Both the position numbers and the translations under genes were made by a program. From contig NZ_JAFIDA010000001.1 of the NCBI RefSeq assembly GCF_017834145.1, positions 1,178,001-1,242,000 of the forward strand: DNA of 64,000 nucleotides. The letters are read 5' to 3'. The notes beneath the pieces were generated by a model. The model saw nothing but the letters and a program-made list of their open reading frames with translations. It did no database searches and was not told the DNA's origin. This document shows positions 11,010 to 30,830 of this stretch, in pieces. Every line of letters starts with the position of its first letter. Position 1 is the stretch's first letter. The DNA comes from Leucobacter exalbidus. GTDB taxonomy: Bacteria > Actinomycetota > Actinomycetes > Actinomycetales > Microbacteriaceae.

Positions 11010-11136
11010 TTGCTGTGGGCGGTGATTGCAGCGCCGGATCGGGCCTGCGTTCGTCGTTCCGTGCTCTGTCGCAGGTCAGCACTAGGCTGAATCTGCAGAG
11101 AGTCGAGCAATGCCGTCGACGTACAAGGGAGAACGC

Positions 11137-12606
11137 GTGACGATTAAAGAGGTCGCCTCAACATCAGTGGGAAAGCTGTTTCTTCTTCCCCTTCGTATTC
11201 CGAGCTACCAGCGGCCTTATTCATGGGAACCCGGTACCGCGCTGCAATTGTTTGAAGATCTCTGCGACGCATTTGAGGCCTCACTCCTTACCGACAGCAC
11301 CAGCGCTGACACTCAGACACCCCCGTATGTGCTCGGCACGGTTATCTTGCATGATCGCGTTGAGGACCCCACAGCATCGACGGCCGAGCAGGGTCGGGTC
11401 TACGACATCGTCGATGGGCAGCAGCGCATCCTGACACTGCGCATGTTGCTCAAGATCCTCGAGACGCCTACGCCCTCTGGCGAAACTGTCGAGACTTCCA
11501 CGCCCCCTCAAGGTTTCCAGTCGTCCAGTTTCACGGGCTCAGCCCTCGCCACAGCGGAACCCGCCATTCGCATCGCCCGTGCCGCCCTATCTCGAGCTGT
11601 TCGTCAAAGGTTTGGCTCAAATCACGACGATGCCAACCGCGACCGGTTCACATGGTTCGTACGTGAGCGGTGCCAGCTCGTCAGAGTAGTGACGGATAGC
11701 GAGGACGAGGCGTTTCGAATCTTTGATTCTCAAAACTATCGAGGAAAGCCTTTGGCCCCTCACGATCTCCTCAAAGCGCATCATCTGCGGGCGATGGAAG
11801 GGGAAAGCGAAGCAACGATTCATGCGGTGATCGAGCGTTGGGAATCAGCAGGAGACGACGCGTTGAATCGCCTGTTTTCGCTTTATCTCTATCGCATCGC
11901 CCGCTGGTCCCATGGTGAGCGAGCGACTTCGTTCACGGACCGGGACATCCACATGTTTAAGGGCCTCACGCAAGAGGATGCCCAGACCCCCAGCCTGAGA
12001 TACCACCTGGCCGCGCAGTCGGCGCTCCCATTGCTGAATAGTTGGTCGGGTTCCCACGCCACGCCTCAGCGCACCCAGGCATCCGATACGCACGATCGAG
12101 AACGGGAACACAGCCGTTTCCAGCTCACTGCTCCGATCCTTGCCGGTCGTGCATTCTTCGAAATGACGGCATTCATGTTGTCGGAGTTGCAACGGCTCTC
12201 AGCACGGGAGTTCCCTGTGGCCGTAGACAAGGCTTCCCCAAAAGACAACACGTTTGAATCTTGGCAACGCCGGCATCGCTACCAGAAGTCCGTAGACCTG
12301 TATCTCGCGGCCGAGCTGTTTTACGTCAACCGGTTTGGCGAGCAGCAACTTCCAGCCGCCCAAGATGCACTCTTCGTGTGGGCGTTCCAGCTTCGCACTC
12401 GCCAACTGCGCATCCAACACAAGTCGATCGACCTCCTCGCATCCGGTGCCGCGGCTCAGGGAAGCCAGCCTCAGCCCACGCCATTCAAGATGTTGAGAGA
12501 GACCCATGACGGTCGAATTGTGAATCGACTCGAACCCGAAGTCAGGCAGTACCGCGATGGCTTCGAGGCAGAGCTGTTCGCAGAACTACTCAGGAGAAGC
12601 GCATGA
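11137..12606 (+). CDS. DUF262 protein (GmrSD-like N-terminal domain)
   Basis: The N-terminal DUF262 domain is recognisable: IPSYQRPYSW at residues 21-30 and the nucleotide-binding DGQQR at 93-97, a ParB/Srx-like fold found in the GmrSD type IV restriction enzyme and SspE. The rest (to 489 aa) is helical, and I find no HNH/DUF1524 motif, so this subunit probably lacks its own nuclease. GTG at 11137 is preferred because AGGGAGA lies six bases upstream; an ATG at 11110 is in frame without such a site. It overlaps the following DUF262-DUF1524 gene by 4 nt, which argues for a two-protein complex. A role in restriction of modified DNA is an inference from the family. Confidence 0.85.
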   Translation: MTIKEVASTSVGKLFLLPLRIPSYQRPYSWEPGTALQLFEDLCDAFEASLLTDSTSADTQTPPYVLGTVILHDRVEDPTASTAEQGRVYDIVDGQQRILTLRMLLKILETPTPSGETVETSTPPQGFQSSSFTGSALATAEPAIRIARAALSRAVRQRFGSNHDDANRDRFTWFVRERCQLVRVVTDSEDEAFRIFDSQNYRGKPLAPHDLLKAHHLRAMEGESEATIHAVIERWESAGDDALNRLFSLYLYRIARWSHGERATSFTDRDIHMFKGLTQEDAQTPSLRYHLAAQSALPLLNSWSGSHATPQRTQASDTHDREREHSRFQLTAPILAGRAFFEMTAFMLSELQRLSAREFPVAVDKASPKDNTFESWQRRHRYQKSVDLYLAAELFYVNRFGEQQLPAAQDALFVWAFQLRTRQLRIQHKSIDLLASGAAAQGSQPQPTPFKMLRETHDGRIVNRLEPEVRQYRDGFEAELFAELLRRSA

Positions 12607-14681
12607 CCCTCACCACAGATCTTCGATCCGAAGCGCTCTCGGTCGCTGGCGTATTCAGCCCAGATTCCCGGTACTCAGTCCCCGCATATCAGCGAAACTA
12701 TGCGTGGGAAACACCACAGATCGAGCAGCTCATCCTTGATATCAAGGCTGCGATGCATGAACAAACCGGTGACCAAGCGCCCAAGAGTTACTTCCTGGGC
12801 AACCTCGTCGTTCAAGCCCGTCCGTTGTCCCCCGGCAGCAAGATCACCGAGTACTCGGTAATTGATGGGCAGCAAAGGCTCACTACGCTTACGCTCCTGT
12901 TGTCGTACCTTTCACGGGCGCGTAAAAACAGTCTTCAGTTACCGTCGAACCCCATCGAAAATCTGACGTATGACTCCAGGCCGCGCTCTGCCGAGACGCT
13001 TCGCCTCATTTCACATGTGACCTCAGCGGGCGAACTCCCTGAGGAAGATCGGCTCGATGCGGGGATCGTCAATGCATTTGGCATCATTTCCCAGACGCTG
13101 AAGCAGCTGGACAAAGATCTCAATTTGGATGCCTTTACCCGTTTCGTTCTAGATCAGGTCACGGTGGTTCGCGTTGAGTTGCCTTTCGGCACAGATCTCA
13201 ACCGATACTTCGAGATCATGAATACACGCGGTCAACAGCTCCAACAGGTCGACATTGTCAAAGCCCGCCTCATGAGTGTGCTCCACAACGGAAACCACGA
13301 CCCCGCTGCATCAGCCGTTGAGGTTGCTGCCTTTGCATGGATCTGGGATGCGTGCGCCGAGATGCACTCGTATGTTCAACAGTCGCTCACGATGGGTAAC
13401 ACGTCGCTGCGTTCAAAGATGTTCACGGCTGGCACCTGGGCCTGGCTGAAACCCCAAAGCTTCGCCGAGCTCGTGGAGTCTTGGACGGCGGCCCCGCCAA
13501 GTAGTGCAGACCCGTGCGACTCCAGCAGCAGTCAATCGGGCTTTCCCCGAGCAACCACGATGTCACTCGACGAGGCAATCAAGTACTACGAGGCGGTGCC
13601 CGCCGACATCGCCGAAGAAGAATCCGACGCAGAACAGTTTCGTTCGACCATCGAGTACCCGTCATTCCTCATGCATGTACTCAAGGTATTCAAGGGCCAC
13701 GCCGCGGAGGCCGACGGCGGGCTTGACGACAGCCATCTCATCCGTTCGTTTGACGAAGAATTCAGCAAGCATGACGCCGAACACGTGCGCGAGTTCATCT
13801 TCCTCCTCCTACGAGCCCGTAATTTGTTCGACGCGTTTATCCTGAAGCGTGAATATCTCGCACGCTCTTCCGATGAAGGTATGTGGTCCCTGCGCCGGGT
13901 GGTGAAGCGTTCAAGCCGTGAGTCACGGCGTGGGCTTGAACGGCAGTCAATCGGATATGTTGGCACCTTTGCACCAGGCGAACATCCTGAAGACTCGGAT
14001 TCAGACGTTGAGTACACAGCCTCTGAGATTCAGACCCACGTTGTAAGACCCGGGCAGTTCGTCCCTGGCGGTCTGTTGCAGCTTCAGTCCATGCTGCGCG
14101 TCACGTACACTTCCCCTCGAACCATGCATTGGATCACGCTGGTTCTGGACTTTGTTTTGCAGCAGCCAGACCCCACGAACGTAGCTGAGCGAGATCTCCT
14201 TGAGATCCTCCTCACACACACTCGATCGCGCGTTCACGATGCTTACTTCGCAGACGTGCCTCCGGTGGGGTTTAGTATTCCGCGCATCGTCTTTACATAC
14301 CTAGATTTTCTCCTGCTGCGTGGTAATCATGTGCCGGGGTTTAGCAGCAGCTTCACCTTTGGATTTCGAACCTCAATTGAACATTTCTTCCCACAGCATC
14401 CCTCGGAGCAACCTGGTGAAGGCGAAGCCGTCTCAAACGAGCTACTCCATTCACTTGGCAACCTCGCGCTCGTCAGCGTGAGCAACAACTCTCGTTTCAG
14501 TAATTTGCTCCCCGGAGCTAAAGCGGAGGGGTTCAAAACAACCATCGAGACACAAAGCCCCAAACTCGCGCTCATGGCGTCCATGACTCGAGCTGCGGGG
14601 GCCTGGAATGATGCGCTCGTCAAACAGCACCACGAAGACATGGAACGCGTGCTACGAGAGGATCTCAGCAACTGGTCCTAA
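12603..14681 (+). CDS. DUF262-DUF1524 protein, GmrSD-like restriction subunit
   Basis: The 692-aa protein has an N-terminal DUF262 domain (VPAYQRNYAWE at about 26-36, DGQQRLTTL from 88) and a C-terminal DUF1524/HNH-like end. At residues about 591-630 EHFFPQHP is followed by the LGNLALVS and SNNSRFSN segments, the His/Asn pattern of the DUF1524 nuclease. The middle is helical. Family members cut modified phage DNA in an NTP-dependent manner (GmrSD) or nick DNA (SspE). It is translated with the previous DUF262 gene (ATGA overlap, AGGAGA before the start). Two DUF262 proteins side by side, one with and one without nuclease, suggests division of labour between sensing and cutting. Confidence 0.86.
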   Translation: MTLTTDLRSEALSVAGVFSPDSRYSVPAYQRNYAWETPQIEQLILDIKAAMHEQTGDQAPKSYFLGNLVVQARPLSPGSKITEYSVIDGQQRLTTLTLLLSYLSRARKNSLQLPSNPIENLTYDSRPRSAETLRLISHVTSAGELPEEDRLDAGIVNAFGIISQTLKQLDKDLNLDAFTRFVLDQVTVVRVELPFGTDLNRYFEIMNTRGQQLQQVDIVKARLMSVLHNGNHDPAASAVEVAAFAWIWDACAEMHSYVQQSLTMGNTSLRSKMFTAGTWAWLKPQSFAELVESWTAAPPSSADPCDSSSSQSGFPRATTMSLDEAIKYYEAVPADIAEEESDAEQFRSTIEYPSFLMHVLKVFKGHAAEADGGLDDSHLIRSFDEEFSKHDAEHVREFIFLLLRARNLFDAFILKREYLARSSDEGMWSLRRVVKRSSRESRRGLERQSIGYVGTFAPGEHPEDSDSDVEYTASEIQTHVVRPGQFVPGGLLQLQSMLRVTYTSPRTMHWITLVLDFVLQQPDPTNVAERDLLEILLTHTRSRVHDAYFADVPPVGFSIPRIVFTYLDFLLLRGNHVPGFSSSFTFGFRTSIEHFFPQHPSEQPGEGEAVSNELLHSLGNLALVSVSNNSRFSNLLPGAKAEGFKTTIETQSPKLALMASMTRAAGAWNDALVKQHHEDMERVLREDLSNWS

Positions 14682-14714
14682 TATTTCAACAGTCCTACCA
14701 CTCTCAAGGTCGCG

Positions 14715-14798
14715 ATGTCTGAGGCTGACGCTATGTTTCAACCATCAACCTACGACGCGGTCACTAAGCGTTGGAGCGAGCTTACGAGCAGGGAGTAA
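14715..14798 (+). CDS. Possible 27-aa leader peptide
   Basis: A short frame starts at ATG 14715, encodes a polar 27-residue peptide and stops three bases before the ATG of the methyltransferase gene, in the same frame. The next gene's ribosome binding site (GGAG) overlaps its end. It may be a coupled leader, or the trimmed 5' end of the next gene. It has no recognisable homology. Confidence 0.3.
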   Translation: MSEADAMFQPSTYDAVTKRWSELTSRE

Positions 14799-14801
14799 CG
14801 G

Positions 14802-15764
14802 ATGAATCAGACTCAGATCAACCAGTTCGACGAGGCCAAGTCACCTTCGCCTTCAACTAGCCGAATCACGCGTGCAGATCTCGACTGGTGGTTGAACATT
14901 GCACCAACGCTCGATTGGGCGTTTGCGGTGACGTATGCCGATAGCGCTCCGCACCATTATGTAGTCAAAGATAGAACGCCAGAGCTCACCCCGGAGGACT
15001 TCGTACGTGCTGGCCGAGTAATCCGAACGTTTGGTGAGCTCGGTAAATTCTTCAAGCGAACCAATCTCTATCTCATTTCGCCTGACGGACGATATCGATG
15101 GTGGGGCATGGATCACGACGTTGCTGACACCGGGATCATCAACCGCGCAGACGCGTCACACATCTACGGACCGCAGAATGCCCCGCGAACAGTGAACGAG
15201 AACGGGTGCGGTGTCGATTCCTCATACGATGAATTCGCGAGCTATTGGGATACTACCCATGCAGCAACAGATGAGGAACGTCGCGATTACTCACTGTTAA
15301 TACGAGAACTCATTGGAAACAGACCTCAACGAGTCCTAGATATTGGGTGCGGCACTGGGCTGGCGCTAGATCTTGGCATCACCACACCTGAGCGCTACGT
15401 TGGCGTGGATCCGAGTCGAGCGATGCTGAATGAACTGGTCTTGAAGTATCCTCACACCGCCGGCATCCACCCGGTGAAGTTCGAGACGGTTCTGCAGGAG
15501 CGTTTCCTTTGCGGCACAAAATACAATGCTGTGCTCGCGCTTGGCGGATCAGCCTCGTATCTGACTCCCGAAGAGATATACGGGATTCCAGATCATGCCT
15601 CAGGCCCCATTGTGCTCGCCCATTACGCTACTGATCTGGAGCCAATCGCAAATGATCTCGACGCATCCACGCGTGCTGCTTCGTTCTCCGCCACTCAGCA
15701 ACTTGTCGAAGCTCGAGGCGGCCGAAGCATCAACATTGGACGTTTCATTGTGAGCATTTTCTAG
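14802..15764 (+). CDS. SAM-dependent methyltransferase with novel N-terminal domain
   Basis: The C-terminal half is a class I methyltransferase: motif I VLDIGCGTG at residues 178-186, acidic strand-2 end GVDPS (Asp203), and a Rossmann-like continuation. The usual post-II catalytic NPPY/DPPF motif of DNA amino-methyltransferases is not visible; the equivalent reads ALGGSASYL, so the substrate cannot be named. Residues about 22-105 form a separate Trp-rich domain (DLDWWLNIAPTLDWAF, YRWWGMD) that I do not recognise. It follows the DUF262 pair by 120 bp on the same strand. A modification partner for the restriction-like pair is possible, but small-molecule methylation is equally open. Confidence 0.75.
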   Translation: MNQTQINQFDEAKSPSPSTSRITRADLDWWLNIAPTLDWAFAVTYADSAPHHYVVKDRTPELTPEDFVRAGRVIRTFGELGKFFKRTNLYLISPDGRYRWWGMDHDVADTGIINRADASHIYGPQNAPRTVNENGCGVDSSYDEFASYWDTTHAATDEERRDYSLLIRELIGNRPQRVLDIGCGTGLALDLGITTPERYVGVDPSRAMLNELVLKYPHTAGIHPVKFETVLQERFLCGTKYNAVLALGGSASYLTPEEIYGIPDHASGPIVLAHYATDLEPIANDLDASTRAASFSATQQLVEARGGRSINIGRFIVSIF

Positions 15765-15838
15765 CTGACTCTTTGATTCCTCAAAACAGCCAAAGGCATA
15801 GCCTGTAGCCCAATACACCCGATCGAACGGAAGACATC

Positions 15839-16270
15839 ATGACCAACAAATCAGAACCGATCGATCCCCTTGCGCGAGGCGCCGTTTCCTTCGAAGCTGC
15901 TTTGCACCAACGGGGCATTTCTCTGGCGAATCAATCCTTCTTAAAAAACCTCAGCGCAACGATCAACATTGCTGGATGCGTTCCAATGGAGTCCTACATC
16001 AAGGTAGAGCGAGTCGAAGGCGGCCCGGCACTGCAGGTGCACGCCGGCTATACGAACGGCTTCCGTTCCGCAGAGGAGATCCGTCACATATTTGGTGAGG
16101 TCGACCTTTGGCCGAGTCAAAGATTCGACGGCGCGTGGGGTGTGACGCACCCTGACAGCGGAATCGGGCGAGCAGACAATCGGGAGAAGAGTGCCGAGAT
16201 CATTCGTAAGGTTTGCCCCACGTGCTTCATTCTTATGGCGGCGTCGGGTGTCTGTAGTTCCTGCGAATAG
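15839..16270 (+). CDS. Small protein with C-terminal zinc ribbon
   Basis: This 143-residue protein of unknown function ends in a CxxC-x9-CxxC ribbon (Cys126, 129, 139, 142), a likely zinc knuckle. The preceding domain is compact alpha/beta (FGEVDLWPSQRFDGAWGV). It lies 74 bp after the methyltransferase on the same strand and is preceded by GGAAG. The zinc ribbon suggests nucleic-acid or protein binding. Its position makes it a candidate accessory subunit of the DUF262/methyltransferase cluster. Confidence 0.65.
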   Translation: MTNKSEPIDPLARGAVSFEAALHQRGISLANQSFLKNLSATINIAGCVPMESYIKVERVEGGPALQVHAGYTNGFRSAEEIRHIFGEVDLWPSQRFDGAWGVTHPDSGIGRADNREKSAEIIRKVCPTCFILMAASGVCSSCE

Positions 16271-16378
16271 CGGCCCTGCTCTGCTGGAGCTGCCGTTGGC
16301 ATGGGTAATTCAGCCAGCAAAGAGAACTGCGGTCGTTTCGCTGGTTAGACTTTTCAACCAATGGCGATGAGAAGATCC

Positions 16379-16402
16379 TTAGTGGTTTCCCGGAACCGCT
16401 AA
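16379..16402 (+). repeat. Hairpin before the serine-hydrolase gene
   Basis: TTAGTGGTT (16379-16387) pairs with AACCGCTAA (16394-16402) including one wobble. It sits 11 bases before the ATG at 16414 and just upstream of the AAAGG site. It could affect translation or end transcripts from the zinc-ribbon gene. Confidence 0.35.
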
Positions 16403-16413
16403 AGAAAGGCATC

Positions 16414-17670
16414 ATGACACAGCTTGGAGTTCCAGATTTTGAGCTTGGTGAGGCACCCGGCGGAGTCATTTCGCGCTATTCCGATGGCGTCCCCACGGTT
16501 TCTTTTGCCCTGGTCGACAAGACCGGCGCAGTGCTTCGGGAGCATGAGGCCGAGCGCACGTTCTACGTTGCCCCCGCTACAGGCGTCGGCAGGCTCGTCG
16601 CGACAGCATCCGCAGACGAAGACCGCCAAGCAGAGGTCCCCCAGCAGACCTCAGCTCTCGGGCTGGCACGACTTGCGTTTAAGCTCGGGCGAAGCGAGGC
16701 CATATCCACCGGGAGCCAGGACGGCAATTACAGCGACAGCGACACTGGAGTCGCACACGACGTCACCTTCATCGAGCTAGATGGGCAGACCCTTTGCCTG
16801 GCAGCATGCACCCGCGGATACACCGCGCCACAGGGCGCCACAGTCTTTCGTGCAATTTCACACGCACTCCTCCAGGAGACCAACGACGCCCCCGCCAGAA
16901 ACCCATCGTTGTCGTACACGCTCTTAGACTCCGCGGGCAATACCACTGACGGGTACGGCGAAGAGCACGAGTACTACGCCGCCAGCACAGTCAAGCTCGC
17001 TGTCGCCGCGGCGGTGCTGCTGCGGGTCGACGCGGGTACGCTCTCGCTCGAGCACACCCTTCCGAGCACCCGCACGTATGCGAGCCGCCTCGCCGGCAGC
17101 CCTGCATTCACGATCGGCGCCGGCGAAGCCGACCCGGGGATGCCCACAGAAGGCGCACCTGTATCTCTCAGTTGGTGTCTCGAGCGCATGATCACGCACT
17201 CCTCAAACGAGACCACAAACCTACTCACGGAGTTCATCGGACTCGGCGCGGTAGACGAAGCGTGCAAACAGTTGGGTATCACCGAGGTTTCGATGACCAG
17301 ACTCATCTGCGACTATGCCGCGAGTCAAGCTGATTACACGCACACGGCAACAACTCGAGGGCTCGCTCGCTTGGTCTGGGAGCTGACCTGCGGTGAACAC
17401 TTCAGCATGGCGTCGCGCGAGCAAATGCTCAAGTTACTCAGAGCTCAGTACTTTCCGATCATCAGTGCCGGACTCCCCGAAGGCACGGCATGGGGTTCCA
17501 AGAGCGGATGGGATGACGGCATCAGGCATGATGTCGCCGTGATCGGAGAACCTGGCGGCTCGGACTTCCGTGTGCTTGCGGTCTGTACCGAAGGGTTCAC
17601 CCCGCGAGGCGCGATCGAACTCATTACCGTACTCACGAGAGCGATTGACCCCACCCGCACGAGGCCTTAG
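16414..17670 (+). CDS. Cytosolic beta-lactamase-fold serine hydrolase with a collapsed duplicate domain
   Basis: Residues 165-411 form a class-A-type beta-lactamase2 domain. It has SxxK at Ser191-Lys194 (STVK), SSN at about 263-265, KSG at 363-365, and the MTRLICDYAAS segment in place of the canonical omega-loop Glu. No signal peptide is present, so it should be cytoplasmic, unlike true beta-lactamases. Residues 28-155 repeat the outer parts of this fold in miniature: SFALVDKTGAVLRE matches SYTLLDSAGNTTDG, GLARLAFKL matches GLARLVWEL, and GVAHDVTFI plus AACTRGYTAPQGA match GIRHDVAVI plus AVCTEGFTPRGA. The helical insert and the catalytic Ser/Lys are missing from this copy. A dead regulatory or dimerisation half fused to an active hydrolase is likely; the substrate is unknown. 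Confidence 0.8.
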   Translation: MTQLGVPDFELGEAPGGVISRYSDGVPTVSFALVDKTGAVLREHEAERTFYVAPATGVGRLVATASADEDRQAEVPQQTSALGLARLAFKLGRSEAISTGSQDGNYSDSDTGVAHDVTFIELDGQTLCLAACTRGYTAPQGATVFRAISHALLQETNDAPARNPSLSYTLLDSAGNTTDGYGEEHEYYAASTVKLAVAAAVLLRVDAGTLSLEHTLPSTRTYASRLAGSPAFTIGAGEADPGMPTEGAPVSLSWCLERMITHSSNETTNLLTEFIGLGAVDEACKQLGITEVSMTRLICDYAASQADYTHTATTRGLARLVWELTCGEHFSMASREQMLKLLRAQYFPIISAGLPEGTAWGSKSGWDDGIRHDVAVIGEPGGSDFRVLAVCTEGFTPRGAIELITVLTRAIDPTRTRP

Positions 17671-17725
17671 CGGTCGGTGCCGAGATGACCTGCTGACCAC
17701 CTCAGCAGATCACACCTCAAGCTGA

Positions 17726-17764
17726 TGCTTGGAAACTAACAACCAGAATGTAAATTTCCAAGCA
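17726..17764. repeat. Inverted repeat, perfect 10-bp arms
   Basis: TGCTTGGAAA (17726-17735) pairs with TTTCCAAGCA (17755-17764) across a 19-bp spacer, about 60 bp after the serine-hydrolase stop. It may be a terminator without a T-run, or an operator. Confidence 0.45.
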
Positions 17765-18114
17765 CAACTTCCCTACCCCAGCGCCCAGGATAAGAAGTCA
17801 TCGATCGCAATTACGGGATTGTATCGTTGCTGAGCCTTTTGCTTTACAAAGCTGAGGACGTAATTAACTTACAGCCGTTCGTGTTATTACGAATGGCATC
17901 GCAGCCAAAATAAACTCGTCTGCTTCGTATGCCACTGGTCCGACAAATTCGTATATGGGCGGCACGACAATAGCGCTGTCTAAATGCAAAACGGTAGATT
18001 CACCACGGTTAGCCTGTAGTTCCTTGCCCCGGACTGCTCAGCCGGGCGGTAAATGCTCGAACCAGAGCTTCCAGATCAACAGCATCGCTGACCGGAAAGG
18101 CAGGGAGAGGGCTA

Positions 18115-18282
18115 ATGGGATATTTCGGTGATGCACTAGCAAGAGAGCACATTGTCGAACTTTCGGCACTCATGAGGTCTCTGCACGAGAGCCACGTCGT
18201 AATGGAGCGAACACCGATTGATGATGTGCTCGCCGCACAGATAGAGAAGAGCACGAAGCTGGGCGACTATTGCGGAGCTTGA
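18115..18282 (+). CDS. Possible 55-aa helical protein
   Basis: ATG at 18115 follows GGGAGAGG at five bases and encodes a 55-residue, probably helical peptide (starting MGYFGDALAREHIVELSAL). Nothing identifies a function. The good ribosome binding site supports expression; the isolated position amid remnants argues for caution. Confidence 0.4.
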   Translation: MGYFGDALAREHIVELSALMRSLHESHVVMERTPIDDVLAAQIEKSTKLGDYCGA

Positions 18283-18440
18283 GGCAAAACAAAGCCGGTC
18301 AAATGGCGCGGTAATGAGAGCCACCCACCACAGACATGTCGCTAAGCGACCAAAAGCACCGCGTCGCAAGCAGCTTTAATTATTCCGCCGAGTCAAGCTT
18401 CAGCGCCAAACAAAGCGAAGTTTCTATCGAGCGAGTCCAG

Positions 18441-18480
18441 ATCGGGTTGACATGATTTGAATCTGCGACTCCTTGACCTC
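18441..18480 (-). pseudogene. Decayed 3' half of a tRNA-Pro (likely attachment-site scar)
   Basis: Read on the minus strand the segment contains GGTCAAG (anticodon-stem 3' arm), GTCGCAGATTCAAATC (T-arm) and an acceptor-like CCCGA end. It matches the 3' half of actinobacterial tRNA-Pro as I know it, with about five differences over 39 bases. Two T-stem pairs are broken and the 5' half is absent, so it is not functional. tRNA 3' halves are the classic targets duplicated by integrases, so this is a probable att scar. Confidence 0.55.
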
Positions 18481-18665
18481 AGGCAGATGAATCAGATGAC
18501 TTTCATTACTTGATTAGGGCTTTGGCGTTCCATACATTGCAGAGCGCGTCACGTTTTGCAGGCTTTGCGGAACGTTAACCACTAGTTTGGCCTGTTAGCT
18601 TCGTAGCATCCACGCCACTTCGGATCAAGTCTATGGCGAGTTTATGGCGACCGCTTCCGCGCGAT

Positions 18666-18691
18666 CCAGCGGTCCAGCGGTCCAGCGGTCC
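18666..18691. repeat. Three tandem copies of an 8-bp unit
   Basis: CCAGCGGT occurs three times head to tail from 18666, followed by a partial copy, about 75 bp before the giant ATPase gene. Copy number could vary by slippage and alter the spacing of an upstream promoter. Confidence 0.6.
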
Positions 18692-18765
18692 ACTCTCCGC
18701 GCCACTCCCACGATCGACCTAAGCTGGCCGTGGGTGCGCCGCTGCTCTGCCGATATCATCCTGTT

Positions 18766-21700
18766 ATGCCCAACGCGTCGAATCCCTTAGCAGCCAATCC
18801 GATTGCGCTGCGGAGTCTGGCGCCGAGCTATGACCAACGGCAGCACGGTGTGTACGTCGATGCATTGGCCAGAGCAATCCGGGATCAGGACGGCGTTCGA
18901 AACATCGCATTGACCGGCGCATATGGCACGGGGAAGAGCAGCGTCCTGATGCGTCTGACCGAACTGGACGAGTTCAGAGATCGGGTGCTTGAGCTATCAC
19001 TGTCCACGGTCGGTGTAATGGAGGAACGGCCAGTGGGCGACTCCGACACAAACCCGGCGGCGTGGATGACCACGAATCGCATCCAGAAGGAGATCGTTAA
19101 GCAAATCCTCTATCGGGACACGCCGGAGAAGACCCGGGGGTCCCGGTTTCGCCGCCTCTCACGGTTCCGCTGGCTGCCTGAGATGGGCATCGCATTCGGA
19201 CTGGGCACGTTACTCTTCACAATCCTATGGATCACAGGCCTTTCCCGACAGATCGTCGGCGTCCTAGACGATGACCACGGGGTCGGCTGGTTCACGCTCG
19301 TTAACATAGTGCTGCTCGTGATGTTGGCGGGGATCGTGTATTCCCTCCGATGGCTCACGCACAACCGTGTCTTCTTAGAGAAGCTGAGCGCTGGTCCCGC
19401 CACCGTATCTCTTGCCACGACATCCTCCAGTTACTTTGACCAGTACATGGACGAGATCGTGTACTACTTCGAGCAGAGCGGTCGCGACATCGTGATCTTC
19501 GAGGACATCGATCGGTTCGAGGATGTGTACATCTTCGAAACGCTCCGTGCCCTCAACACTCTCCTAAACGGGTCCGATCAGGTTCGTCGGCGTCGACGCG
19601 TTAAGCAGTTCAAGTCGGCGAACGAGGAGTCGCGTATGGGAAAGCCTCGGAGAGCCGTTCCGTCTCCGGATGTGAAGTTCATCTATGCCCTGCGTGACAG
19701 CGTCTTCGAGAAGCTCGGCAACGAGTACGATGGCGAGGAACCTAATGAGGCGGCACCGGTGCGCGTTGAGACAGCAAGAGACGCTGGCGACAATGAAGTG
19801 AGACGGGCGAACCGCACCAAGTTCTTCGACATCGTCATCCCGATCGTCCCGTTCATTACTCACCGCAACGCGCGCGATCTGATGCTCGATGCCATGGAAG
19901 GGGCGGGTGTATCCCGTGACCTCATCAATGTCGCTGCCCGGTTTGTGGCTGACATGCGCCTGATTACCGACATGCGCAACGAGTACGACGTCTACGCCGA
20001 CCGGCTGCTCGGTGGGCCTCGCCAGATGCCCGGGCTCGATCCGGACAAGCTGTTCGCGCTCATCGTCTACAAGTGTGTCCACATGGCAGACTTCGAAGCA
20101 ATCCGCTCTGGTGCCAGCGACCTCGATGTACTCCACGATGTCTGGCGAGACATCGTCAAAACCGCCCTCCCCGCCGCACAGACGCGGGAGCGAGCTGCAA
20201 CCAGACAGCTGTCGTTGGAGGGGGTCCTCGACGGCCGGGCAAAGTCACTCGGCGACCGCTTGGAGAGCGTCATGCACGCCCTCCCTTTCAATCAGAATCA
20301 TCCGACCCACGTGCAGCTGACTGTGGGCAACCAGGCTTACAAGGGAGCGCAGTTACGCACCCGCGAACTCTGGACGCTCCTGGCGGCCGACCAGGTATCG
20401 GCCGCCGTCTCCAACAGCTATAACGGCCAGAGCATAAGCTTTTCGTTCGATCAATTGCAGACCCTAATGGGAACGCAGTTCGATCCCTCTGAATGGGTCA
20501 AAGTCGACCGACGCACCCAGATCGACAAGCGCCGCTCGGCGCTGCGGGACGTCGATTTCCTCCGGCACCACACCTGGGCCGACATCTACGCACGAGGAGA
20601 GTTCACCACCACTGCGGAAGATGGCGCCGAGCCGGAAACATTCGCGCAGGCGACGGACCGGATCTTGAAATCCCGCGTGGCTCGAGCGCTTGTCGCTGCT
20701 GGCTACATCAACGGCTACTTCGCACTCTACGTCTCCGTGTATTACGGCCAGCACCTCCGACCACGCGCACTAAACTACATCATCCATGCTCTCGACCGTG
20801 GAGTCGCCGATATCCACGCCGAGCTCGACGGAGACGATGTCGAGGCGATAATCGGTGACGAAGGCACTGACATCTTCCGGGACCGTGCCGCCTACAACGT
20901 CTCAGTCCTCGATCATCTACTGGCGAAGCGACCGGACGAGGCGCAGATGATCGTACGGCAAGTAGCTGCCTGGGATCGGGACGATCGCGACTTCGGTCTT
21001 GCATATATTCAGGCTGGGAGCGAACGAATACGGTTCGTTCGCCGCCTCGCACCGCTCCTGCCGGAGAAAATCGCGAGCATCGTAACGGATGCCCCGGAGG
21101 ACGTACTCCCCCATCTGATCGAGGCCGCACTCGGGGCAGCCGGTTCTGAGATCGGCGAGCCCCCGACCAGCGAGTTTGCCGATCTCGTGATCAAGAACTA
21201 CAGGCAGTTCTCTTCCATCATCACCGCCCCGCGGGGCAAAGCTAAGGTCCTCATACCCAAGGCGAAGGCCATAGACGCGATCGCCAAGCTCCGAATCCAG
21301 CTCCCCTCGACGGCACCGTTAAACAGCCTCGCTCGCAAGCGCGTCATTGAGCTGGGTGCTTACGAGCTAAATATCGCAAACATCGAGAATCTGACAGAGC
21401 AACCCTCGCTCGCTCTGGATGCCATCCGATCTGCCAGCGAACCCGTCTACAGTGCCGTACTGGGACGCGTTGGAGAGTACTTCGCACTCATAGCCGAACG
21501 CAACGGCGCCGTCACGATCGAGGATCCCGAGGAATTCCTCTCGATCCTAAACGACGCGCACGAGGTCACCATGGATCGTAAACATCTCGCTCAGCTCGTC
21601 GAAGGGGCATCCGCAGCCTGCCGTGTCGATGCTGCAGCTGACGCACCATCGTCTGTGTGGCCGACGCTCGCGGCCACGAGGCGGATGGCTCCCTCGCCGC

Positions 21701-22527
21701 AGAACCTTCTGGCTTATCTCGACACTATCGGCGAGCTCGACGACAACGTCGGACAGCTCCTCGCTCTCGTCGAAACGGTCGAAGGGACCGACGAGGTGCC
21801 AGACTTCGAGAGAATTCGGATCGCCGTCGCGATCCTCAACGCCAGGGAGACCATTCCCTCCGCCAGACGCCGTGTGAACCTCGCCGTCAGTCTGCATCTG
21901 CCCTCACCGATCTCTGCGGATTCCCTCACTCCGGAAAGCGGTGACATCGTCGGACTGATGATCGAGACGAAACTACTCAGCGACGACGAGACCACCTTCG
22001 CACACGCCGTGATAGCTGACTGGCCTACCCGGGAGGCCGCCCTCATCCGGTCGAAGAATGCTCCTGCAATCATCTCACCGGTTCTTGTTCCGTCAACCGA
22101 CCTCGGCAGCTTCTTCAGTAGCGCGACGGTGCCGACGGAGCTGAAAGAGGCGGTTCTGTCGCAGCTCGGGATTTTTCTTCCCGGCGCAAGCCGGGACACG
22201 GTCCGCACCGTATCGAACTTCGCGGCTACCACAGACGCCGACGTCCCCTTCAATACCATCGATCAGCTAAGAATCAGTGGCGCCACCGACCACAGTATTG
22301 TGACATTGCTAACTAACTCCCAAAGCATCTCGCTGGATCAGATCCAAGCAACACTGCGAACTCTTGGTGCCCCGTATCCCTCAATTGCGGATCGCGGCAA
22401 CGTCAGGCCGGTTGTCCCCGACGACTATGCCCACCAACGGTTACTAGACCGCCTCAAGTCGGCCGGCATCGTAAGCGGCCACAAGCCCGAGCGTGGCAGT
22501 CGACGAGTGTCTCTCCGAAAGCCGTAG
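18766..22527 (+). CDS. Giant membrane-associated P-loop ATPase (YobI-like)
   Basis: A 1253-residue protein with an N-terminal P-loop GAYGTGKSS at 51-59, two transmembrane helices at about 139-158 and 176-195 inserted inside the NTPase domain, and Walker B DIVIFEDIDRF at 241-251. This layout is that of the YobI-type/KAP-like membrane NTPases, which are thought to respond to intracellular threats, mostly from their genomic company. Residues about 480-1250 are a long helical region, probably a scaffold or sensor, without a nuclease motif I can see. ATG at 18766 gives a normal start; GTG at 18730 would add 12 residues. No strong ribosome binding site is visible. It stands alone, apart from other operons, in the island. 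Confidence 0.8.
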   Translation: MPNASNPLAANPIALRSLAPSYDQRQHGVYVDALARAIRDQDGVRNIALTGAYGTGKSSVLMRLTELDEFRDRVLELSLSTVGVMEERPVGDSDTNPAAWMTTNRIQKEIVKQILYRDTPEKTRGSRFRRLSRFRWLPEMGIAFGLGTLLFTILWITGLSRQIVGVLDDDHGVGWFTLVNIVLLVMLAGIVYSLRWLTHNRVFLEKLSAGPATVSLATTSSSYFDQYMDEIVYYFEQSGRDIVIFEDIDRFEDVYIFETLRALNTLLNGSDQVRRRRRVKQFKSANEESRMGKPRRAVPSPDVKFIYALRDSVFEKLGNEYDGEEPNEAAPVRVETARDAGDNEVRRANRTKFFDIVIPIVPFITHRNARDLMLDAMEGAGVSRDLINVAARFVADMRLITDMRNEYDVYADRLLGGPRQMPGLDPDKLFALIVYKCVHMADFEAIRSGASDLDVLHDVWRDIVKTALPAAQTRERAATRQLSLEGVLDGRAKSLGDRLESVMHALPFNQNHPTHVQLTVGNQAYKGAQLRTRELWTLLAADQVSAAVSNSYNGQSISFSFDQLQTLMGTQFDPSEWVKVDRRTQIDKRRSALRDVDFLRHHTWADIYARGEFTTTAEDGAEPETFAQATDRILKSRVARALVAAGYINGYFALYVSVYYGQHLRPRALNYIIHALDRGVADIHAELDGDDVEAIIGDEGTDIFRDRAAYNVSVLDHLLAKRPDEAQMIVRQVAAWDRDDRDFGLAYIQAGSERIRFVRRLAPLLPEKIASIVTDAPEDVLPHLIEAALGAAGSEIGEPPTSEFADLVIKNYRQFSSIITAPRGKAKVLIPKAKAIDAIAKLRIQLPSTAPLNSLARKRVIELGAYELNIANIENLTEQPSLALDAIRSASEPVYSAVLGRVGEYFALIAERNGAVTIEDPEEFLSILNDAHEVTMDRKHLAQLVEGASAACRVDAAADAPSSVWPTLAATRRMAPSPQNLLAYLDTIGELDDNVGQLLALVETVEGTDEVPDFERIRIAVAILNARETIPSARRRVNLAVSLHLPSPISADSLTPESGDIVGLMIETKLLSDDETTFAHAVIADWPTREAALIRSKNAPAIISPVLVPSTDLGSFFSSATVPTELKEAVLSQLGIFLPGASRDTVRTVSNFAATTDADVPFNTIDQLRISGATDHSIVTLLTNSQSISLDQIQATLRTLGAPYPSIADRGNVRPVVPDDYAHQRLLDRLKSAGIVSGHKPERGSRRVSLRKP

Positions 22528-22947
22528 CCAGATCAGTGAATGGCTTACAGGTTTTTTCCTCAGCTATTCATGATCTTTGGAGAGAATCTCGGTGCCGAGC
22601 ATGCCGATCCATCCGCGGTGAGATCGCACCGGACATCACAATGGTTCGCGCCGCCAGCTCGCGGGTGCTGCGTCAAGGCGGCTCTCCAGCCCGGCATAAC
22701 GTTGGCTAGCAGGCACTGTTTTGTCACCCTCGCGACACGACGATCCCTGACGACTCGATGAGTTTCTGGTGTTGACGTGAACACGCACGGCCTTCCGGCG
22801 CCCCCGGAACCTATGCATCTACACTGCATGCCTAGGAATTTTAGCTCAGGCGAGAAGAAAACACCGAACTCCACGTACTCGGGATCAAGACTCAGTAGCA
22901 CCAAAATTGGTTTGCCGACTGTGACGCTTCACGCTTTACAAACCAGA
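22528..22947. other. 420-bp gap without a supported gene
   Basis: I see no gene, RNA or strong hairpin between the giant ATPase and the operator of the XRE gene. Short frames here have no ribosome binding sites and unusual composition. Confidence 0.5.
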
Positions 22948-22963
22948 ATTGCATATATGCAAT
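22948..22963. promoter_or_regulatory. 16-bp perfect palindrome before the XRE gene
   Basis: ATTGCATATATGCAAT is self-complementary and ends one base before the AGGAGG ribosome binding site of the XRE regulator. It is well placed for autorepression of the toxin-antitoxin-like pair. Confidence 0.7.
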
Positions 22964-22979
22964 CAGGAGGGAAGCAAGT

Positions 22980-23888
22980 ATGGATGCGGCAGCCATAGTG
23001 AAGCGTGTTCGCGCACTGCGCGGTATCACCCGCAAGGAGCTCGCTGAGCTCGCAAACCTTTCACCCTCAACGGTGGGTCGTATTGAGCGCGGCGAGGTGG
23101 ATCCCACGTGGGGAACATTGTCACGCATCCTCTCCGCCACCGGGTACCAGATCAGTGGCGGCACGATTGTTTCGGCCGGAGACATCTCTGCCCTCGCAGC
23201 AGCTCGCCCATGGATCAGCGCAATATTGGATGCGCTTGAGGAGAGCACTCGGGCATACTCTCCAACGCTTGTGTCTTCTACTCAGGAGATAGCTGCGGCC
23301 GCGGCCCGTAGTAATGTCAAGCTGAACTGGCCTGAACTCTGGGGCTCGGTACTGAAGAACCTCACGGTCTCGTTGAGTCCCTTCCCGAATATGACGAATG
23401 AATGGTGGGAGCATTGGCAGCGTGCAGGCTGGCTGAAAGATGGGGCTGACACCGACGATCTGGTCGCACTCGCGGTATCAGCCGGGAACGCGGCAAAGAT
23501 CAGTCGACGAAGCGGTATCCAGCGGGCGGTCGATGCGCCAGGCGGATGGCAGTCACTTGCGCGTGCGCTGAGCGATGCTGACGTCAACTACGCCGCCTCT
23601 GGCCTCGTCGCGACGCGGAACGATCGCAGTGTGGCTAACGCGAACTTGCCAGTGTTCTACGTTGAAGACCCGGTGGATCTCGGGTCCCGATTCTCGCTTT
23701 CGCCGGCAGCTCTTGGCCGGGGCGTCCTACTTATTGAGGCAAGTGACGGAGAACTTGATGACGTCGAGGCTGAAGAAGGGATTTGGTTTGTGCCGCGTTC
23801 CCAGGCCATCCTTGATGCGCTCGCGGGGTCCGGTCGCGAGCCGGACAAGGCGGAGAATGAACTTCGGAAGCTGCTGGCTGCGGCATGA
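22980..23888 (+). CDS. XRE-type regulator, antitoxin-like
   Basis: The 302-aa protein starts with a clear lambda-repressor-type helix-turn-helix (residues 7-60: VRALRGITRKELAELANLS, followed by STVGRIERGEVDPTWGTLSR). The remainder is a C-terminal domain of unknown family with Trp-rich and helical parts. AGGAGG precedes ATG 22980. It overlaps the next gene by 4 nt (ATGA), the layout of antitoxin-toxin pairs of the HTH plus nucleotidyltransferase class (AbiE-like). It probably represses its own promoter through the palindrome at 22948-22963. The C-terminal part may neutralise the toxin; this is inferred from the pairing only. Confidence 0.8.
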   Translation: MDAAAIVKRVRALRGITRKELAELANLSPSTVGRIERGEVDPTWGTLSRILSATGYQISGGTIVSAGDISALAAARPWISAILDALEESTRAYSPTLVSSTQEIAAAAARSNVKLNWPELWGSVLKNLTVSLSPFPNMTNEWWEHWQRAGWLKDGADTDDLVALAVSAGNAAKISRRSGIQRAVDAPGGWQSLARALSDADVNYAASGLVATRNDRSVANANLPVFYVEDPVDLGSRFSLSPAALGRGVLLIEASDGELDDVEAEEGIWFVPRSQAILDALAGSGREPDKAENELRKLLAAA

Positions 23889-24170: not shown

Positions 24171-24461
24171 TCATTTGATTTCAACCAGTTCTTTGGCGCT
24201 GGCGACTCCAGCATAGAACGTCTCCTCGTACTCCGCTGGCGACACATCCCCGAGGTAGCCGTGTAGCCGTTCGGTGTTGTGCCAATGCACCCAACCAAGC
24301 GTCGCGAGCTTGAGATCATCGATGGTCCTCCAGGGCCCGTTCTTCACCGGTCCCCGCACCAATTCGACCTTGTAATACCCATTCACCGTTTCAGCGAGGG
24401 CATTGTCATAACTGTCGCCGACGGTCCCGATCGAGGGTGTCGCTCCAATCTCAGCGAGTCG
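24171..24461 (-). pseudogene. IS3 transposase OrfB, 3' portion
   Basis: The C-terminal part of an rve-type DDE transposase: LAEIGATPSIGTVGDSYDNA then LAETVNGYYK (containing the catalytic Glu) and the WVHWHNTERLHGYLG end. A longer apparent frame up to 24881 continues into IS21 sequence and is a chimera without meaning. The missing upstream part lies beyond the inserted IS21 element, from 29714. Confidence 0.85.
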
Positions 24462-24477
24462 TGAGTATTCGGTCTTC

Positions 24478-24567
24478 TGAGCAGCACCACTATTGCGGTT
24501 GAGCAGCACGTTGATGCCCTTCAATATTGCTTCGTGAGCAGCACCCAATATTTTTGTTGAGCAGCAC
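24478..24567. repeat. Four TGAGCAGCAC repeats, left end of IS21 element B
   Basis: Copies start at 24478, 24500, 24535 and 24558. Multiple repeated transposase-binding sites at each end are typical of IS21 elements. The matching right-end set is at 29643-29697. Confidence 0.85.
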
Positions 24568-24576
24568 TGTGGGACC

Positions 24577-24615
24577 CTCCTTCTGTCGCGCGCTGTTACC
24601 GCGCGACAGAAGGAG
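24577..24615. repeat. Perfect 16-bp hairpin in the leader of element B
   Basis: CTCCTTCTGTCGCGCG (24577-24592) pairs with CGCGCGACAGAAGGAG (24600-24615) around a 7-base loop. The 3' arm includes AAGGAG. It lies between the terminal repeats and a TTGACA (24622-24627), so it may block transcription entering from outside the element. Confidence 0.7.
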
Positions 24616-24733
24616 TCATTCTTGACAAGTAGCCCTTGATGGTACGGGTAGTCCACATACCCGGTACTCCTATTCTGGCGAGGGGGTACTGGCACCCAGT
24701 CGAAGACGCTGGATGCCAGGCCGCTCGCTCCTG

Positions 24734-25501
24734 CTACTCCCAGTGGTCCTCTTTCTTGCGTGCGCGTTCGGCGTGCAGGCTCCGCATATCGATAGTGCCC
24801 AGATCGATGCGGCGGGAGCCAGAGACGAGCCTGTTCACGATCGAGTCGGCCGCGACTCGGTCCGGGAGCGCTTCGAGCCAATAGCCCGGCCCCGACTGTG
24901 ACGCGATAATCGTGGGCAGCCTCGTGTCTCTGTTCGCGAGGATTGTGAAGAGGTCATTCGCGGCGTCAGCATCAATACCGATGGTGAGGAAATCATCCAA
25001 AATAAGCACTTCAACGTTTGAGAGGTCGTTCAAGAGCTGCTGATGCTGGATGCTGTCACCCCTCGCGACGAGGAGGCGGCGGGCAAGGTCATCCATGCGA
25101 ACGTAAGTCACCGAGTGTTCGGTGTGGCAGGCCGCGATCCCGATCGCGCACGCTAGATACGTTTTCCCGCCGCCGGTAGGTGACATGATCAGCACGTTCC
25201 TCGGGTCTTGCCGCCATGCGGCTGCCGCGTAACGTTGCATCCTGACTTTAGTGAGGCCACGCCCTTCTCGATAGTCGATCTCTGCGACTGACGCGGTCGG
25301 ATGAGGGAACCCGGCCTTCTTGATGAACCCGTTGACCCGGTTCTCGCGCCGGATCCCGAGCGCTAAATCGGCGGCGGTTTGAAAGAGTTGTTCGGGGGTG
25401 AGATGGTCATTCGCCTCATCAGCGATGAGCTGCTCGAACTGGAGCGCAACGTGCGTGATCCTGAGGGTGCGGAATTTCTCGTGGTCTTCGCTGCTGAACA
25501 T
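24734..25501 (-). CDS. istB: IS21 helper ATPase IstB (element A)
   Basis: A 255-aa AAA+ ATPase that assists the IstA transposase in target selection. Walker A is SPTGGGKTYLACAI and Walker B is VLILDDFL; the arginine-rich C-terminus (VNRLVSGSRRIDLG) is as in the family. Its start overlaps the istA stop by one base, so both are translated from one message. It looks intact. Confidence 0.92.
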   Translation of the reverse strand: MFSSEDHEKFRTLRITHVALQFEQLIADEANDHLTPEQLFQTAADLALGIRRENRVNGFIKKAGFPHPTASVAEIDYREGRGLTKVRMQRYAAAAWRQDPRNVLIMSPTGGGKTYLACAIGIAACHTEHSVTYVRMDDLARRLLVARGDSIQHQQLLNDLSNVEVLILDDFLTIGIDADAANDLFTILANRDTRLPTIIASQSGPGYWLEALPDRVAADSIVNRLVSGSRRIDLGTIDMRSLHAERARKKEDHWE

Positions 25502-27123
25502 TAGGCTGCGCCTCCCTGCTGCCCGTTGCCTGGGGCGTAGTGAGAAGCGTCGCGCACGTACACGTCAGCAAACTCTTCGAACTTAACGGGACTCACTCGC
25601 TTTGCTTGGCCTTTCTGCGTTGACCCTGCCGGCACTCGGGGTGCAGGTTTCTTGACGTCGCTATCGATGCCCGCCATCATGCGTTTCAACACGGTGTATG
25701 TGGGTGCCGTTCCGAGGTTCAACACCTGCTGGCAGGCAGCCTCGAGTCGCTGCTTGTTCCGCCTCCCCAACCCGGTGAGAATATTCTGGCAGTCGAGGAA
25801 GCCCTGCGCCTCGATCTGCTGACGGTCAAGAACCTGCTCGATCACGGTCACGGTCGCGGGGCCGAAGCTCCGCGCGAGATCGGTGAACCATCGCCTGGTC
25901 CACAGCCCATCAATGTTGCGGTGCTGTGGCGGCACATGCGCAGGCTGGGTCGCATACTGGCCTTTACGCCCGGTGAGGCGTCGGTGTTCACAGACAAGAT
26001 CGTGCCCATCGAACACTGCCACTCTCGCCGAGGTGAGTCGGGCCCGAAGGAGGCGGCCAGCGTAAGCATGGGGAACGGAGTAGTGCATGTAATTGCAGGT
26101 GACGTGGTAGTTCCGCCCCACCTTCACGTCTTTCCACTCGACTTCTTCAAACGGGTCGGCAGGCATCGGCCCAAGTTCTGCCGCTTCCTCGGTCTCGAAT
26201 CGTTCCCATCTGGTGGTGTCGTCGGCGCGTAACATCACGTGATTGATCTCGTGTACCCGCTCCTCGATCGCTTCGTTCAACTCCGCAAGACTCGACCATG
26301 TTTCCTCGGCAAGATATCCGATGACACGTTTATTGACTACGTTTACCGCGTTCTCGGCAGCCGCTTTGTCGCGTGGTTTCTTGACTCTGGCGGGCACGAC
26401 CGCGACTCCGTAATGGTCAGCGAACTGCCGGTAGCGTGCGTTCACTACCCGCTCCGCATCACCCTGCCGCAGCCGATGTGTCGAGGTTGTCGGGTTATCG
26501 GGCACGATCAACTTCGTCGTGCCCCCAAAGAACGAGAACGCACGCGCATGCGCGTCAATCCACGACGGTGATTTCATGTCCGTATACGCGTGGCAGAACA
26601 CCGCACCCGAAAACGGGAGCGCTGCAACAAACAAGATCGCCTTGGTGATTTCCCCGGTTGCCTGGTCGACGAGGTCGAGGGTGTCGCCAGCCCAATCGAC
26701 AAGTATCGCCCGACCCGGCTCATGTTTGAGCGTCGCGACGAGATCGTTCTTCCTCAGGTAGTCGCTGAAGAGATGGCAGTACTGGGCGTACCCATATTTC
26801 CTCAGCCCTCCGCTATCTTGACCGACATAGCGTGACCAGGCTTGCTGCAGCGTGAAATGCCGATTCTTCCGCATCGATGCCACCACCCGTCGGTAGTCGG
26901 GCTGTTCATAATCATCGCTCACTCGAGCGCGCCCATCGGGGAACAAACCCCGCACCTCGGCATCGGTCATGGGCTGGAACAAAGCGCGAGTAATCCCGCG
27001 CGTCGCGATCACCTTCTTCGCTGCTGCAACCTCTCGGCGAGAACATCCCACAAGCTCCGTGATCGTCGCGTAGCTGCGCTGATCGAGGAGCAGATCCATG
27101 ATTTTTCGGTAATCGGCCATCAC
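25501..27123 (-). CDS. istA: IS21 transposase IstA (element A)
   Basis: A 540-aa transposase with an N-terminal HTH (residues about 15-45) and an rve catalytic core. The DDE residues lie in ILVDWAGDTLDL, LIVPDNPTTS and KAAAENAVNVVNK. The C-terminal beta-barrel-like region (YHVTCNYMHYSVPHAYAGR) is conserved. Both element-A genes appear intact, so this copy may be active. Its start is about 125 bp inside the right end of the element. Confidence 0.92.
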   Translation of the reverse strand: MMADYRKIMDLLLDQRSYATITELVGCSRREVAAAKKVIATRGITRALFQPMTDAEVRGLFPDGRARVSDDYEQPDYRRVVASMRKNRHFTLQQAWSRYVGQDSGGLRKYGYAQYCHLFSDYLRKNDLVATLKHEPGRAILVDWAGDTLDLVDQATGEITKAILFVAALPFSGAVFCHAYTDMKSPSWIDAHARAFSFFGGTTKLIVPDNPTTSTHRLRQGDAERVVNARYRQFADHYGVAVVPARVKKPRDKAAAENAVNVVNKRVIGYLAEETWSSLAELNEAIEERVHEINHVMLRADDTTRWERFETEEAAELGPMPADPFEEVEWKDVKVGRNYHVTCNYMHYSVPHAYAGRLLRARLTSARVAVFDGHDLVCEHRRLTGRKGQYATQPAHVPPQHRNIDGLWTRRWFTDLARSFGPATVTVIEQVLDRQQIEAQGFLDCQNILTGLGRRNKQRLEAACQQVLNLGTAPTYTVLKRMMAGIDSDVKKPAPRVPAGSTQKGQAKRVSPVKFEEFADVYVRDASHYAPGNGQQGGAA

Positions 27124-27270
27124 CGGCCACCTCCTGAAACTGTGTCAGCAGCACCGTATTGTGCCGCTAGTTCCAGAAAAGCGCATAACGCGCGGCAGTA
27201 CCACCTGCCCAGAATAGGAGTACCGGGTAGATGGACTACCCGTACCAACTGAGGCTATGCGCCAATTCTG

Positions 27271-30814: not shown

Positions 30815-30830
30815 CGGGCTATCTAGCCCG
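30815..30830 (-). terminator. Short hairpin over the helicase stop codon
   Basis: CGGGCTA and TAGCCCG form a 7-bp stem with a 2-base loop, overlapping the stop of the leftward helicase gene. A T-run is not evident, so this is a weak candidate. Confidence 0.4.

Follow-up and report, generated by a model that had tools for sequence, protein, structure and literature searches.

Why would an intracellular serine hydrolase be translated with a shrunken, dead-looking version of its own fold in front of it, where might that front half have come from, and could it still serve the enzyme behind it? The gene that raises these questions, the fused serine hydrolase gene P0001 (16414-17670), lies on the forward strand of the window, as we call the whole 64,000-nucleotide stretch of Leucobacter exalbidus DNA that was analyzed. 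It is an uninterrupted open reading frame of 418 amino acids in a genome assembled as a single contig, and a purine-rich AAAGAAAGG at 16401-16409 lies upstream of its ATG. Positions given below without a locus name are those of the window, and all parts of P0001 share its strand.

A shrunken half ahead of an active-looking domain

The back half of the protein (residues 165-411; 16906-17646) is an active-looking Beta-lactamase2 domain. The Pfam family PF13354 matched P0001 with 118.4 bits (cut-off, 22; E = 3.7e-34), its best stretch covering residues 177-392. The domain contains an SxxK motif (Ser191 and Lys194 within ASTVK, 190-194; 16984-16995), an SSN motif (residues 263-265; 17200-17208) and a KSG motif (residues 363-365; 17500-17508), and Ile298 (17305-17307) occupies the place of the catalytic glutamate of the omega loop, as read off HMMER alignments to class A enzymes. 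The front half, taken alone, matched no Pfam family above cut-off. Direct comparison of residues 1-160 with residues 161-418 yielded a Smith-Waterman score of 82, compared to a mean of 32.7 (s.d. 5.2) and a maximum of 59 in 1000 shuffles.

The first-pass annotation had described the front as a collapsed, dead repeat of the active domain and listed the elements that recur, and these lie where it placed them: VSFALVD at 29-35, GLARL at 83-87 and 316-320, and HDV at 115-117 and 372-374, with GYTAPQG (135-141) in the front pairing with EGFTPRG (393-399) in the back. It was equally right that the front (about 28-155) lacks SxxK, SxN and KxG and that the back keeps its three motifs. Motifs, predicted secondary structure and class A alignment agree on a dead, shrunken beta-lactamase-fold half ahead of an active-looking one, although the structural model behind the latter two has low confidence. 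The claim that the protein carries no signal peptide is borne out by a simple hydropathy test, in which the first 63 residues contained no hydrophobic segment and the highest 19-residue Kyte-Doolittle mean was only 0.76.

Profiles and tree place the front half with a neighboring paralogue

In five loci (L014, L015, L033, L067 and L068), two complete adjoining genes are found, A (about 280-300 aa) followed by B (about 255-275 aa), and in all five of these genomes the two genes overlap by exactly 4 nt (ATGA or GTGA). SxxK and SAN are present in every complete A protein; the third motif is KGG in four of the five and KSG in the remaining one, so A may have been catalytically altered before any collapse.

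We built one profile from the five A proteins and a second one from eight B proteins together with five fused back halves. The window front (residues 1-160; 16414-16893), which shares 48% identity with the A protein of L014, scored 123 bits with the A-profile versus 43.5 bits with the B-profile, and the best of 1000 shuffled fronts reached 6.3 and 7.0 bits, respectively. The A-profile matched in three pieces, corresponding to A positions 3-61, 162-188 (weak, 3.8 bits) and 225-281. In a tree restricted to columns that the front retains, the window front grouped with the A proteins (95/95) and the window back with the B proteins, and in the domain tree the A proteins formed a clade of their own. 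As the A-profile outscores the B-profile and the tree placement concurs, we read P0001 as A fused to B, with A eroded. Judging from these sequence comparisons, the front is the collapsed remnant of paralogue A, formerly a separate and complete neighboring gene, and the back is B. The earlier description of the front as a copy of the protein itself thus holds insofar as the front is a diverged, half-size copy of the fold, but its source is the distinct paralogue A rather than P0001's own active domain.

Alignment to A indicates which parts were kept and which were lost. Toward its start, the front retains strands beta1 and beta2 of A as a pair (residues 28-46; 16495-16551; predicted strands 28-35 and 40-46), and all nine A-invariant columns within residues 6-49 are retained. 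It is followed by a ruined nucleophile motif (residues 51-59; 16564-16590), which reads YVAPATGVG versus YSASTVKVG in A proteins. Behind this former nucleophile helix, at approximately residues 64-69 (16603-16620), a first internal deletion has removed about 100 residues of A, including the SxN motif. Next comes a kept helix, the SALGLARLAFKL region (residues 80-92; 16651-16689), which is supported by predicted secondary structure and the alignment to A; four of six A-invariant columns are retained in residues 80-95. A second deletion, placed approximately at residues 95-97 (16696-16704) before the last strands, has cost about 35 residues, and the KxG strand is degenerate at this point. The remnant closes with the strand-strand-helix end of A (residues 112-156; 16747-16881), the part matching A-profile positions 225-281 with 53.5 bits. 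Counted over segments that were chosen after the alignment had been seen, 24 of 29 A-invariant columns are kept in strand and helix segments versus 10 of 25 in segments where motifs were lost or pieces joined.

Predicted structure of the front half

The front was modeled alone, with one full-length A protein in the alignment, because MAFFT mostly placed A on the B domain when full P0001 was aligned with A proteins, whether entire or cut into pieces; the full-length model was made from such an alignment. Confidence in the front-alone model is low (mean pLDDT, 49; pTM, 0.50). Its main elements are strands at residues 28-35, 40-46, 113-122 and 125-134 and helices at 81-100 and 140-158; across both models, the second strand ends at 44 or 46, the first helix covers about 81-91/100 and the last helix about 138-158. 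These predicted elements would correspond, at low confidence, to the alpha/beta part of the beta-lactamase fold. Mean pLDDT of the full-length model was 72, with about 57-77 in the core blocks of the front.

In structural comparison using VIA, the front model aligned with the class A enzyme GES-5 (Z, 9.2; rmsd, 3.2) over 109 residues, spanning almost the full length of the chain, and unrelated folds in the same list reached Z scores of up to 6.7. A Foldseek search with this low-confidence model returned nothing at E <= 0.001, the best match being GES-18 (0.085). The back of the full-length model matched class A enzymes with a Z score of about 29. The proposal that residues 28-155 form the alpha/beta sandwich of the beta-lactamase fold is therefore not contradicted by the model, but at such low pLDDT the model is no proof of it.

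Fusion and collapse seem to have occurred more than once

Relatives of P0001 were sought in 60 related genomes, 54 genomes of the genus and 398 family genomes, the latter drawn from a larger group. Within the genus, nine genomes matched at E below 1e-40 and were counted as carriers; two distant matches (G007, 5e-8; G063, 5.2e-4) were counted as non-carriers. Sixty-six of the family genomes matched, the best four candidates per genome being scored, and loci were taken from nine of these 66 as well as from G000, G013 and G062. G207 and the weaker family matches lie outside this sample, and fused forms beyond those described here may exist. A pattern search of genome contigs matched 17 stretches, one of which was a relative (L014). 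Searches in the genera of G079 and G122 (one genome each) gave nothing further, and a plasmid search gave no match.

Five of the 54 genus genomes encode a fused protein, three the separate pair and one B alone; the remaining 45 have none at this level. Apart from P0001, the fused proteins are L016 and L017 (393 aa, close relatives of each other), L019 and L032, and the fronts of the fused proteins comprise 124 to 172 residues, linkers counted in. The A-profile scored 29.0 bits for the front of L016, 27.9 for L017 and a weak 16.5 for L019, with matches at the two ends of A, each of them weak alone; all three scores exceed the 6.3 bits of the best shuffled front, and the B-profile gave 3.0-4.7 bits for the same fronts. 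The 166-residue front of L032 was not recognized by the A-profile, so we dropped it as an A remnant and counted L032 as a fused protein whose front is unassigned. L032 (9013-10272 of its locus, reverse strand) comes from a genome without an S66 match (G062), and amino-acid ABC transporter-like genes were seen nearby by eye.

The domain tree contained 23 domains. L034 (G072), which is letter-identical to L014, was left out, as was L075, one of the single-gene relatives L070-L075, because of its insert. By eye, the hydrolase domain of this protein (L075:7721-8884) is interrupted by about 60 residues of low-complexity, repeat-like sequence. The window B domain was placed with those of L015 and L033 (97/92), followed by L014 (96/91) and L067 (100/99). 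All these neighbors come from genomes with a separate, full-length A, and the B domains of the other fused proteins fall outside; L032 forms a long branch of unsure placement. Forcing all five fused proteins into a single clade was 74 log-likelihood units worse (p-AU, 7.4e-6), in a test whose group was defined by architecture and set up with the tree already known. The same constraint without L032 was 75 units worse and likewise rejected, and we discarded a single origin of all fusions.

Since the window B domain nests among genomes with a separate A and a single fused clade is rejected, fusion with collapse seems to have occurred at least twice, each time with the ends of A kept and the middle lost. 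Taken as a history, A-B fusion, loss of catalytic motifs and repeated collapse appears highly probable to us. One genomic position, between S66 and DAO genes, exists in three states: full A plus B (L068), a shrunken A-B fusion (L016, L017 and L019) and B alone (L018). The last of these indicates that B can do without A.

The back half most likely resembles PBP-A

The B domain carries the SxxK, SxN and KxG motifs of class A beta-lactamases, but at the position of Glu166 an isoleucine (Ile298) is aligned, and its score with the NCBIfam class A model falls short of the cut-off (75.7 versus 200 bits). Although residues 165-411 share the fold and three of four catalytic motifs with enzymes such as TEM, GES and BEL, we rejected the assignment as a class A beta-lactamase proper, the omega glutamate being absent; the low NCBIfam score and the lack of a visible export signal are further differences. 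PBP-A likewise combines the class A fold with loss of the omega glutamate, and phmmer related it to the B domain with E = 1.5e-9; PBP-A structures were also among the VIA matches of the front model. The PBP-A chain is a single domain. PBP-A of Thermosynechococcus (PDB 2j7v, 2jbf) resembles the back of P0001 in its class-A-like fold with missing omega-loop glutamate; its solved chain has 298 residues, whereas P0001 consists of two halves and has no signal peptide by hydropathy. PBP-A is, according to one report (PMC11189452), a DD-carboxypeptidase and DD-endopeptidase. By analogy, the most likely activity of B is that of a PBP-A-like DD-peptidase, which would act on imported peptidoglycan peptides.

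Gene neighborhood suggests a link to peptide salvage

Of the 11 A/B-clade loci, nine contain a gene for an S66 LD-carboxypeptidase within about 3.1 kb; the exceptions are the window and L032. All nine S66-bearing loci also contain OppDF-type transporter genes, and SBP_bac_5, permease, M20, S13 or DAO genes accompany part of them, as far as the stretches reach. No S66 gene was seen in the stretches of eight more distant single-gene loci (L020 and L069-L075). Across the genus, S66 matches above cut-off were present in seven of nine carriers versus three of 45 other genomes (Fisher p = 2e-5, kinship ignored). At L014, the same cluster contains a further, distant Beta-lactamase2 gene (L014:9603-10409), which adjoins a gene for a C1-type peptidase.

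Together with the likeness to PBP-A, the S66 and transporter neighbors suggest that the ancestral role may have been cytoplasmic salvage of imported peptidoglycan peptides. The ykfABCD operon of Bacillus, as described in parts of PMC3305447, likewise unites LD-carboxypeptidase and oligopeptide-transporter genes; these parts name no Beta-lactamase2 gene, and the window genome, for its part, has no S66 match. From this absence, it appears that P0001 has lost its salvage setting. We consider a salvage substrate about evenly poised for the A/B family, and less probable for the window protein. Its present substrate may differ, as S66 is missing and the genes around P0001, among them those of the GmrSD, methyltransferase and YobI/Tmn-like types, form a stretch in which GC3 is lower. 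GC3 was 0.56-0.72 in seven genes over 11110-23888 versus 0.79-0.87 in seven genes outside; a Schlafen-helicase gene at 30823 also has a low value (0.57).

The first-pass annotation had placed P0001 in a defense-like cluster, but a link to defense was not supported. None of 5027 PADLOC models matched P0001 at E <= 0.001, and of 14 other window genes that were compared, 12 had no relative in 18 loci with P0001 relatives (BLAST, E <= 1e-8). The unmatched genes include the GmrSD, methyltransferase, ORF143 and YobI genes; the two with relatives encode a sugar-type ABC ATPase and a permease.

Several window genes deserve mention in their own right. On the forward strand, a pair of GmrSD-type genes overlap at 11110-14681; GmrSD_N is joined by DUF7834 in one and by GmrSD_C in the other. 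For a 143-aa protein (15839-16270, forward strand), neither Pfam nor NCBIfam gave a match at E <= 1. Matches to it occur in 17 of the 54 genus genomes, including the window's own, often in two pieces about 90-100 bases apart, and one shows 51% identity (G031). The gene at 18730-22527 (forward strand) encodes a 1265-aa YobI-like P-loop NTPase, which matched the PADLOC Tmn model at 2.4e-38. At 24171-29588 lie two IS21-like transposase/IstB pairs that face opposite ways, together with an integrase-core open reading frame.

Selection on the front half and its possible role

Our preferred account is that two overlapping genes for paralogous cytoplasmic Beta-lactamase2 serine hydrolases fused. During or after fusion, in-frame deletions would have stripped A of its catalytic residues and helical middle, leaving strands beta1 and beta2, a single helix and the strand-strand-helix unit at the end; B would have retained its catalytic motifs. 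Before that, A and B most likely formed a heteromer, the products of translationally coupled genes, and the A remnant may now act as a built-in, non-catalytic partner that stabilizes or shapes B. Coupling, heteromer, scaffold role and substrate are all features that we infer. To this best explanation, in which dead A is kept as a scaffold or partner beside a cytoplasmic, DD-peptidase-like B, we give an even chance.

The main rival holds that A became redundant after fusion, and that the front is a functionless, decaying relic, lost piecemeal and translated merely because it stands behind the promoter, ribosome site and start codon. We regard this as a serious possibility, if one clearly short of even, and weighed it using the close pair L016 and L017; for the window protein, no close relative turned up. 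Their fronts (residues 2-118) differ by 25.7 amino-acid-changing differences per 253.8 sites and 22.3 silent ones per 97.2 (Fisher p = 0.0048); for the backs, the counts are 12 per 584.8 and 36 per 222.2 (p = 2e-12). Front dN/dS of this pair, 0.21-0.40 depending on method and stretch, speaks against a relic. As changing differences are fewer per site than silent ones, the front seems weakly constrained, and this one fused pair suggests weak purifying selection on it. Split into thirds, the front yielded p values of 0.025, 0.065 and 0.4, the first third alone being significant. In favor of a relic, dN is about 0.10-0.12 in the front versus 0.02 in the back, so that the front changes about five to six times faster at amino-acid-changing sites. 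The window's end branch measured 0.95 for the front versus 0.33 for the back. The state of L018, where the corresponding locus holds B but no A, and the spread of the fronts, both in length and in their recognizability by the A-profile (from clear in the window to nil in L032), point in the same direction.

The pattern of what was kept argues the other way. Structural invariant columns are mostly retained and motif columns mostly lost, and the last strand-strand-helix unit persists in both lineages, although the easiest collapse, in which one deletion brings the start of A directly up to B, was possible; neither lineage shows it. Deletions in the middle would spare the ends in part simply because neither the start codon nor the fusion point can move. 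Because the shrinking and fusing seems to have recurred, the remnant may still do something. The stronger claim, that in at least two lineages of one genus a partner subunit was fused, pared to the same alpha/beta ends and is still needed by the active half, we put forward tentatively, as possible but rather doubtful.

A regulatory or substrate-binding front, the role suggested in the first-pass annotation, would cover or flank the B active site and sense a ligand such as a muropeptide; we consider it unlikely. In the beta-lactamase fold, the ligand pocket lies between the helical and alpha/beta halves, and most of the pocket-forming helical half is gone from the remnant. Activating dead paralogues are nevertheless known, namely the trypanosome AdoMetDC prozyme and deoxyhypusine synthase (passages of PMC5201418 and PMC3663545). 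Like P0001, both combine a dead paralogue with an active enzyme; as described there, however, the partners are separate proteins in a complex, whereas the A remnant is fused and comprises about half its fold. A defense effector acting with the GmrSD, methyltransferase or YobI/Tmn-like neighbors is very improbable and was ruled out. In its favor, P0001 sits among such genes in the lower-GC3 stretch, but no PADLOC model matched, the 18 loci with P0001 relatives hold no relative of these neighbors at E <= 1e-8 and the nearest kin adjoin salvage-type genes. Had the active domain instead been duplicated within the gene and its first copy then collapsed, the clear likeness of both halves would be accounted for, yet the probability of this is close to negligible and we ruled it out, the front being closer to A by profile and tree and A forming its own clade.

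Parallels and implications

The closest described phenomenon is domain atrophy, the loss of core elements from a known fold, which Prakash and Bateman (2015; PMC4432964) characterize in the passages concerned as extremely rare. The A remnant resembles it in that core elements are gone within one open frame of a single-contig genome, and not through an annotation or frame artifact. In those passages, atrophied domains are rescued by dimerization or complex formation and mostly keep their functional site; the A remnant, in contrast, has lost its site, is welded to a motif-intact paralogue and seems to have arisen more than once. The word 'lactamase' is absent from the main text of that paper, and a search of the open-licence literature found no paper on this architecture or enzyme pair.

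Among the relatives of P0001, the intact, ancestor-like pair, the fused and shrunken form and B alone all coexist, so that the function of a dead partner becomes testable by comparing natural proteins. The loci further suggest that Microbacteriaceae possess a pair of class-A-like enzymes encoded next to genes for peptidoglycan-peptide salvage. If the A remnant is indeed a welded scaffold, separate A and B, the half-A-B fusion and B alone at a corresponding operon position would form a natural series for studying what a partner does for its enzyme.
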